A stretch of 64,000 bases of DNA from an uncultured Acidobacteriota bacterium. GTDB lineage: Bacteria > Acidobacteriota > Blastocatellia > Pyrinomonadales > Pyrinomonadaceae. The notes below the pieces were generated by a model. That model did no database searches, had not been told where the DNA came from, and saw only the letters and a list, made by a program, of their open reading frames with translations. The first letter of the stretch is position 1; each line of letters opens with the position of its first letter. The stretch lies in the NCBI GenBank assembly GCA_937859595.1, contig CALMAH010000011.1:1-64000 (forward strand). The letters are read 5' to 3'. A program made the translations under genes and the position numbers. Positions 29,551 to 31,016 of the stretch are shown in pieces.

Positions 29551-29601
29551 GGGTTCATCTGACGAAGACCAAGCTTACGGCACCTTTGCCGGAGGCTTAT
29601 G

Positions 29602-30090
29602 ATGGCAGAACACGTCCTTTATCGAAAACTCGAAATAGAACTCCCGCGCGATGAGGTATTCGCATTTTTTGCCGACGCCGGAAATCTCGAACGGATAACG
29701 CCGCCTGAGCTAAATTTCCACATCCTTACCCCACAGCCCATCGGGATAGCCCGAGGGACGCTCATCGATTACAGGCTTCGGCTTCGGGGGCTCCCGATCA
29801 GCTGGCGCACCGAGATATCCGTTTGGGACCCGCCGAATGAATTTGTAGATAGACAGCTGCGTGGGCCCTATAAACAGTGGATACATCGACACACCTTTAC
29901 GGAACTCGGGCCTCGACGAACACTAATAGAGGACCAGGTTCGCTACCGGCTTCCTTTTGAACCGCTAGGCGATCTCGCTCATTTCATTGTGAAAAGGGAG
30001 TTGACCTATATTTTCGATTTCAGGCAAAAGGCTGTCAAAAAGATACTTGGGGAAACCGCGTCAGATAGGCCACTCGCCGCAGTAGGCTAG
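29602..30090 (+). CDS. SRPBCC-family ligand-binding protein
   Basis: 162 aa with the START/SRPBCC fold: LPRDEVFAFFADAGNLERITPP at the start and the central RGTLIDYRLRLRGLPISWRTEI strand pair. Cytoplasmic, no signal peptide. GGAGG at 29591-29595 favours the second ATG (29602). Its last 30 bp overlap the end of the convergent DapF-like gene. Confidence 0.82.
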   Translation: MAEHVLYRKLEIELPRDEVFAFFADAGNLERITPPELNFHILTPQPIGIARGTLIDYRLRLRGLPISWRTEISVWDPPNEFVDRQLRGPYKQWIHRHTFTELGPRRTLIEDQVRYRLPFEPLGDLAHFIVKRELTYIFDFRQKAVKKILGETASDRPLAAVG

Positions 30091-30915
30091 GTCCGCGCTT
30101 CCGGTTATCAGGATCTCGTTGTCGTTCTGCCACTGGACCTTCGTCGTGCCGCCAGCCGATCTTACGGAGACATTACGCTCCGTCCTGTCTGTGAAAGAGC
30201 TAAGCACAGCGGCTCCGCTCGCACAGGTTCCCGAGGCTGCCGTTTCACCCGCCGCTCGTTCCCAGATCCTGATCTCGATGTTCTCCCGGTCGAGCACCTT
30301 TACAAAGACGATGTTCGCCTTTTCGGGAAACGCAGGATGTGTCTCAAGCTCGCGGCCGTAGATCCGCCACTCCGGGTCGAACTCGTTGACAAAGATGCAG
30401 GCCACCGGGTTGCCAACGTTGACGCCAGAGACCAAAAACGTGCGTTTTAGGACCGTGACCGGATGGTCCACGACCGACTCGGCCGGTTCGCGGGTCGCTA
30501 CGGGGACAAGATCGCTGTGAAACGCAGGCTTGCCGATCTCGGCCTCAAACTGGTAATGCCCTCTCGGTCCGGATCCGATCATACTGAACTTCTTTACACC
30601 CGTCCGCATCAGAAGCCTAAGCTCGGGAGACTGCCATAGCTCTTTGAAATAAAGATAGGCGACCGCACAGCGAGTGCCATTCCCCGAAAATCCGGCATAG
30701 CTTCCGTCCGGGTTGATTATCTCACAGTGGAAATCTGCCTCGCCGTCCTCCAGACGGGTAAGCACCGCGATACCGTCCGCACCCGCTCCTTTATGCCGGT
30801 CGCAGATCGCACGCGACAGGTCGGCACGATCCGTATCGTCAGGGATGTCAGTCGATTCGATGACGATATAGTCATTGCCAAAGCCGTGAAATTTACAAAA
30901 CGCGATCGCAGACAT
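30061..30915 (-). CDS. dapF: Diaminopimelate-epimerase-family protein with both catalytic Cys replaced by Ser
   Basis: The fold is clearly DapF: FHGFGNDYIVIE at the start, NPDGSYAGFSGNG, GNP and ERAAGET at the usual places, 284 aa. In true DapF two cysteines (E. coli C73 and C217) do the proton swap. Here the first is Ser77 (FSGNGTRC) and the second is Ser228 (GETAASGTC); the expected His after GNP is Val (GNPVACIFV). Ser mutants of DapF lose epimerase activity in the classical work. So the gene may be a paralog with another substrate, or the lineage may use serine. A frame extending to 30981 lacks support. Confidence 0.72.
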   Translation of the reverse strand: MSAIAFCKFHGFGNDYIVIESTDIPDDTDRADLSRAICDRHKGAGADGIAVLTRLEDGEADFHCEIINPDGSYAGFSGNGTRCAVAYLYFKELWQSPELRLLMRTGVKKFSMIGSGPRGHYQFEAEIGKPAFHSDLVPVATREPAESVVDHPVTVLKRTFLVSGVNVGNPVACIFVNEFDPEWRIYGRELETHPAFPEKANIVFVKVLDRENIEIRIWERAAGETAASGTCASGAAVLSSFTDRTERNVSVRSAGGTTKVQWQNDNEILITGSADLAYCGEWPI

Positions 30916-31016
30916 AATGGACAAGAAATAAGACGCTCCCTCGGCCTCAGTTTGCACAATGACGAAAGATTGACAAAGCACCGCGAGGTTGGGACTCTAA
31001 GTTTGTAGGATACGTT

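Follow-up and report, generated by a model that had tools for sequence, protein, structure and literature searches.

The diaminopimelate (DAP) epimerase homolog encoded in the window (the whole stretch of 64,000 nucleotides that was analysed, contig 11 in the 3.82-Mb genome, 98% complete, of an uncultured Acidobacteriota bacterium) is, by sequence and fold, a variant inside the DapF family that carries serine at both catalytic positions. To our knowledge, every studied DapF uses a catalytic cysteine at both sites, and no earlier report of a Ser/Ser DapF was found in the literature searched, subscription journals and protein databases lying outside that search. We lean towards the reading that this protein works as a DAP epimerase by means of a serine dyad, an active-site variant shared by its whole lineage; we infer its substrate, its reaction and catalysis by serine from sequence, fold, conservation, its being the sole copy and the pathway context.

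The gene and its product

The features of the locus that matter here are the following.

30061..30915, minus strand: Ser/Ser DapF homolog, 284 residues from ATG (TIGR00652, PF01678, AlphaFold, Foldseek)
30685..30687, minus strand: TCG codon of Ser77, equivalent to the catalytic Cys73 of H. influenzae DapF, directly ahead of helix 78-90
30403..30405, minus strand: codon of Val171, which replaces the His of GNPH
30232..30234, minus strand: TCG codon of Ser228, equivalent to the catalytic Cys217 of H. influenzae DapF, directly ahead of helix 229-241
29599-30090, plus strand: polyketide-cyclase-like gene, convergent with dapF

A GTG at 30981 is an alternative start for the same ORF and gives a 306-residue form. 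The DapF equivalog model TIGR00652 matches the ORF with 187.7 bits (E 2.7e-55), above its cut-off of 114.65, PF01678 matches both of its halves (142 bits), and the Pfam search of the ORF protein returned no family except DAP_epimerase. Both neighbours of dapF are unrelated genes on the opposite strand, so that the local operon context is uninformative: on one flank lies the polyketide-cyclase-like gene, whose 3' end shares 30 bases (30061-30090) with that of dapF, and on the other a MauE-like membrane protein (sub-threshold match).

Aligned with solved DapFs, the first catalytic site reads SGNGTRC against the usual CGNGIRC, the second ASGTC against the usual ACGTG, and the GNPH motif is GNPV. 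The alignment thus confirms what the earlier note had read from the DNA, namely serine at both catalytic positions and valine for the His after GNP, and the serines are further borne out by their TCG codons and by their presence throughout the genus and class. Because the cysteine pair that defines the family was looked for and is replaced (Ser77, Ser228), the protein was not classed as a classical DapF, from which it also differs, within its genus, by Val171 in place of the GNPH His.

The AlphaFold model (pLDDT 95.7) shows the two-domain DapF fold. Its catalytic residues sit at the N-terminal tips of helices 2 and 4, since helices 78-90 and 229-241 begin right behind Ser77 and Ser228, and the top Foldseek matches are nearly all DapFs. 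The likeness to classical DapFs (PDB 9mro, 1gqz, 4ijz) covers the full-length two-domain fold, with TM-scores of about 0.82-0.88 at 27-33% identity, and extends to the invariant DAP-binding Asn, Glu and Arg residues and the same position in the DAP pathway as in the TIGR00652 family. The claim that the remaining fold is intact therefore stood, with the addition of further changes in the genus (the Gly past Ser228; Thr and Glu in TNVEF). Membership of the PhzF family (13-16% identity, TM about 0.7, ranking behind the DapFs in Foldseek) or of the proline racemase superfamily (13-15% identity, TM about 0.7) was rejected. So was a relocated catalytic cysteine, as no Cys column is particular to the Ser/Ser group; the Cys after Ser228 (SGTC) is limited to the window's family, some members of which have Ala or Gly instead.

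Serine at a catalytic cysteine position is also present in the engineered C73S and C217S DapFs (PDB 2q9h, 2q9j) and in HisR C67S/C209S. Those mutants are lab-made, single and of reduced turnover, whereas in the window's protein and its kin both serines are natural and conserved across the phylum. Threonine variants of proline racemases and Asp/Glu racemases are likewise natural, one Cys of a two-base racemase being replaced (PMC8142540), but they change a single position, in families other than DapF, and dehydration or one-way turnover results.

Distribution and history of the serine pair

All genomes of the genus and of the class (Blastocatellia) with a DapF spanning both sites encode serine at both. 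The phylum was sampled by a pattern scan and by a search of 149 genomes with TIGR00652, which matched in 145, together with the loci fetched from both. Ser/Ser was found in 106 sequences, from 38 of the 63 sampled families, Cys/Cys in 58 sequences from 25 families and Cys/Ser in three sequences from three families; the Ser/Cys combination was absent from the sequences read. The question raised earlier of whether the pair is fixed among relatives is thus answered for the sampled class, where it is, and for the phylum, where it is widespread. The Ser/Ser gene is nearly always the sole DapF of its genome in the sampled families. Among the matches listed, the named genomes with Ser/Ser are Aminicenantes, Bryobacterales, HR08/HR10 bacteria and one Methylomirabilota bacterium, and the remaining named phyla are all Cys/Cys.

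Both types are present together in G120, G131, G160, G210 and G428 (for example L141 with L215 in G120 and L251 with L373 in G428), this co-occurrence being seen in some f28 genomes and one Bryobacterales MAG. In G210 (contig C114), the match to the second, Cys/Cys DapF-like gene (L219) contains one in-frame TGA.

A maximum-likelihood tree was built of 107 DapFs by quick search, with SH-aLRT as its only measure of support. In it, 61 Ser/Ser rows fall into a single clade (support 98) that adjoins canonical Cys/Cys DapFs of other phyla. Three further Ser/Ser rows (f28, Methylomirabilota) form a second group (support 99), and one (f9) lies within another clade, alongside acidobacterial Cys/Cys DapFs and the three Cys/Ser proteins. 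From this placement, the Cys-to-Ser swap occurred at least twice. The Ser/Cys state changes 3 times on the tree against a mean of 34.6 when shuffled, and this non-random distribution, with Ser/Ser in every DapF of the genus and class that spans both sites, shows that the pair is neither a sequencing accident nor a product of chance. The acidobacterial Cys/Cys DapFs (GVPH / ERGVEGETLACGTG type) share phylum and enzyme family with the window DapF but form a separate clade (support 98), with both cysteines present, a one-residue insertion and GVPH. The Cys/Ser DapFs (L146, L182 and L203, from families f14, f25 and f45), whose first site is Cys and whose second is Ser, are a possible intermediate state. 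The earlier note had named two marks of an ordinary DapF, normal turnover of LL-DAP and a DapF clade without another homolog; the Ser/Ser members largely show the second, for they group in a DapF clade with good support and most of them have no other homolog beside them.

At site 1, 118 of 126 serine codons are TCN and 8 are AGC, the latter in several separate families (L152 is Ser/Ser by alignment, and its regex row, 'TS', in this codon survey is a mis-hit). As no single synonymous step leads from TCN to AGC, it is serine itself that is maintained, and neither Ala nor Gly occurs at either site among the members of the Ser/Ser clade that were read. Purifying selection acts on dapF: within the genus, dN is about 0.28 against a dS of at least 1.7 where computable, a dS near saturation, and the divergence rate of DapF is similar to that of DapB and LysA. 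N14, N68, N169, N201, E219 and R220, the DAP contacts taken from solved structures (PMC12039745) and matched by motif, are invariant. The clear differences between Ser/Ser and canonical Cys/Cys sequences are the two serines and, at position 86, Ala in place of Lys/Arg; the residue immediately ahead of Ser228 is frequently Ser too in the Ser/Ser sequences.

The invariant DAP contacts bear on an alternative that we consider unlikely, in which the Ser/Ser protein takes DAP or a closely related compound as ligand but catalyses a different reaction, be it one-base exchange, elimination or the epimerisation of some other diamino acid, and an unrecognised racemase makes meso-DAP. Such a shift has parallels, as a Cys-to-Thr change in the proline racemase branch turned an epimerase into a dehydratase (PMC8142540) and HisR is a DapF-like gene with a different substrate (PMC11602996). 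The genomes holding both copies also speak for it and, because a few genomes carry both, Ser/Ser and Cys/Cys DapFs may not be interchangeable. Besides the conserved contacts, the lack of a second DapF in most genomes argues against this alternative, as does the clustering of Ser/Ser members with ordinary DapFs, far nearer than to proline racemases or PhzF.

The window's genus carries additional active-site changes, fixed or common: loss of the GNPH His (H171V), of the Gly three residues past Ser228 (G231C/A) and of the Thr and Glu of TNVEF (T200A/V, E203V). The His-to-Val change is confined to this genus. The motif is GNPN in the sister genera; most of the remaining Ser/Ser proteins show GNPH, and a sizeable number GNPQ. 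Beyond the window's family, the majority of Ser/Ser members have His or Gln after GNP. Since it is limited to the genus, the His loss is a later, local step, separate from the Cys-to-Ser swap. These losses, together with the GNPN of the sister genera, could mean that serine is functional in most of the phylum and that the enzyme of the window's genus is degenerate or re-purposed. Four genus genomes without a DapF match (G001, G016, G019, G030) point the same way, but they are 89-96% complete drafts in 180-600 contigs, in which assembly gaps or true loss would look alike. With dN well under dS in the genus, a divergence similar to that of dapB and lysA, and no replacement DapF found, we regard such degeneration as very improbable.

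Pathway context and the source of meso-DAP

In the window genome, aspartokinase, DapA, DapB and DapD score above their NCBIfam cut-offs and lie close together, in the company of a DapE/ArgE-type deacylase and of an aminotransferase to which no model gives a confident name. LysA is also above its cut-off, and the MurE of all class genomes read has DNPR, a motif that accompanies DAP and not lysine in the MurEs studied. The window genome therefore combines the genes to make LL-DAP with enzymes that normally need meso-DAP.

A whole-genome search of this 98%-complete genome found no second DapF, and Ddh and plant-type DapL are both absent from it, so that a bypass through either was rejected. In the phylum sample, four f33/g60 genomes and G098 are the only ones with a DapL above its cut-off, and Ddh is confined to two f33/g60 genomes. 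With the pathway genes present and Ddh and DapL absent, LL-DAP should be made and there is no other recognisable maker of meso-DAP. Of the two possibilities put forward in the earlier note, that of a true DapF elsewhere thus found no support, as neither a Cys/Cys DapF in the rest of the genome nor dapL was found. The other, that the lineage uses serine, best fits the complete DAP pathway, the sole homolog and the phylum-wide serines, and remains something that we infer.

The pathway alone is no proof of epimerisation because, according to PMC8741058 (its ref. 73), E. coli dapF mutants are viable with LL-DAP in the wall. It is conceivable, if rather unlikely, that these bacteria build LL-DAP walls and keep a catalytically dead DapF homolog for a binding or regulatory role. 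The E. coli DapF-RppH pair would be the model for this, DapF(C73&217A) still binding and activating RppH (PMC4227774). The LysA of the window's genome would agree, as it reads CDGGD against the CESGD/CETGD of many other families of the phylum, and its stereochemistry may differ. This alternative is opposed by the phylum-wide invariance of the serines and of the substrate-binding residues, and by the joint presence, in f15 and other families, of a CES-type LysA (expected to need meso-DAP) and a sole Ser/Ser DapF.

As to LysA itself, CDGGD or CDSGD is found in the genus and in several families of the class (L224:5864-7246, that is G000:C38:53863-55245, L351-L363, L369 and L370), and CESGD/CETGD in many other families of the phylum; judged from the motif, the former may alter the stereochemistry of the substrate.

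In family f15, the neighbours of dapF are an LD-carboxypeptidase (PF02016) and a Mur-ligase N-terminal domain, which we read as Mpl-like. The Ser/Ser DapF is retained in four near-complete genomes without a LysA match (G064, G079, G116, G156), which suggests a role for DapF in the wall. Lysine auxotrophy has been reported for Chloracidobacterium thermophilum (PMC4376005). Two genomes of two contigs and 3.7 Mb (G046, G050) have no dapB match, yet both contain a Ser/Ser DapF and LysA, and G046 also encodes a MurE with DNPR.

Possible serine chemistry and its consequences

If the window protein is the serine-dyad epimerase that we favour, LL-DAP would be made through the succinylase branch (aspartokinase, DapA, DapB, DapD, the aminotransferase and the DapE-like deacylase), and the Ser/Ser DapF would invert one centre of it to give meso-DAP for MurE and LysA. 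One serine would be the base, alkoxide-like, and its partner the acid, in parallel to the thiolate/thiol pair of classical DapF. The lowered thiol pKa of DapF has been attributed to placement at helix N-ends (PMC12039745). As Ser77 and Ser228 occupy the same positions, the same helix dipoles, with backbone amides and a dehydrated pocket, may permit serine to serve as base and acid, probably with slower turnover than in classical DapF.

What is known of serine in this fold weighs against such a reaction. Cys-to-Ser mutants of DapF-fold enzymes lose most of their activity (PMC11602996 for HisR; PMC12039745), in support of the earlier statement that serine mutants of the cysteine enzymes are crippled, and serine is the poorer base, Cys being preferred for its easier desolvation and lower pKa (PMC8142540). 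The additional losses in the genus (His, Gly and the TNVEF residues) and the coexisting Cys/Cys copies also count against the epimerase reading. A slow enzyme may nevertheless suffice, because impaired E. coli DapF mutants show normal growth (PMC6254735) and dapF-null cells survive, with LL-DAP in the wall (PMC8741058, its ref. 73).

The broader proposal, on which we are evenly divided, is that an amino-acid epimerase with a Ser/Ser dyad is the standard DapF of much of Acidobacteriota. It would carry out cofactor-independent deprotonation of the alpha-carbon, having arisen in the main clade and in at least one other DapF clade, in the latter possibly via Cys/Ser.

The thiol/thiolate pair is regarded as the hallmark of DapF and as what makes the enzyme work chemically, and covalent inhibitors have been designed on it. 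If much of a major phylum does run this step with serines, the two-thiol rule would not be general, thiol-directed DapF inhibitors would miss such bacteria and annotation by the cysteine motif would misjudge them. If the protein is not an epimerase, the source of meso-DAP in Acidobacteriota, or its use at all, becomes a question. With a Ser/Ser protein as the sole DapF homolog, these bacteria would thus have either serine chemistry for a cell-wall building block or some other route to it.
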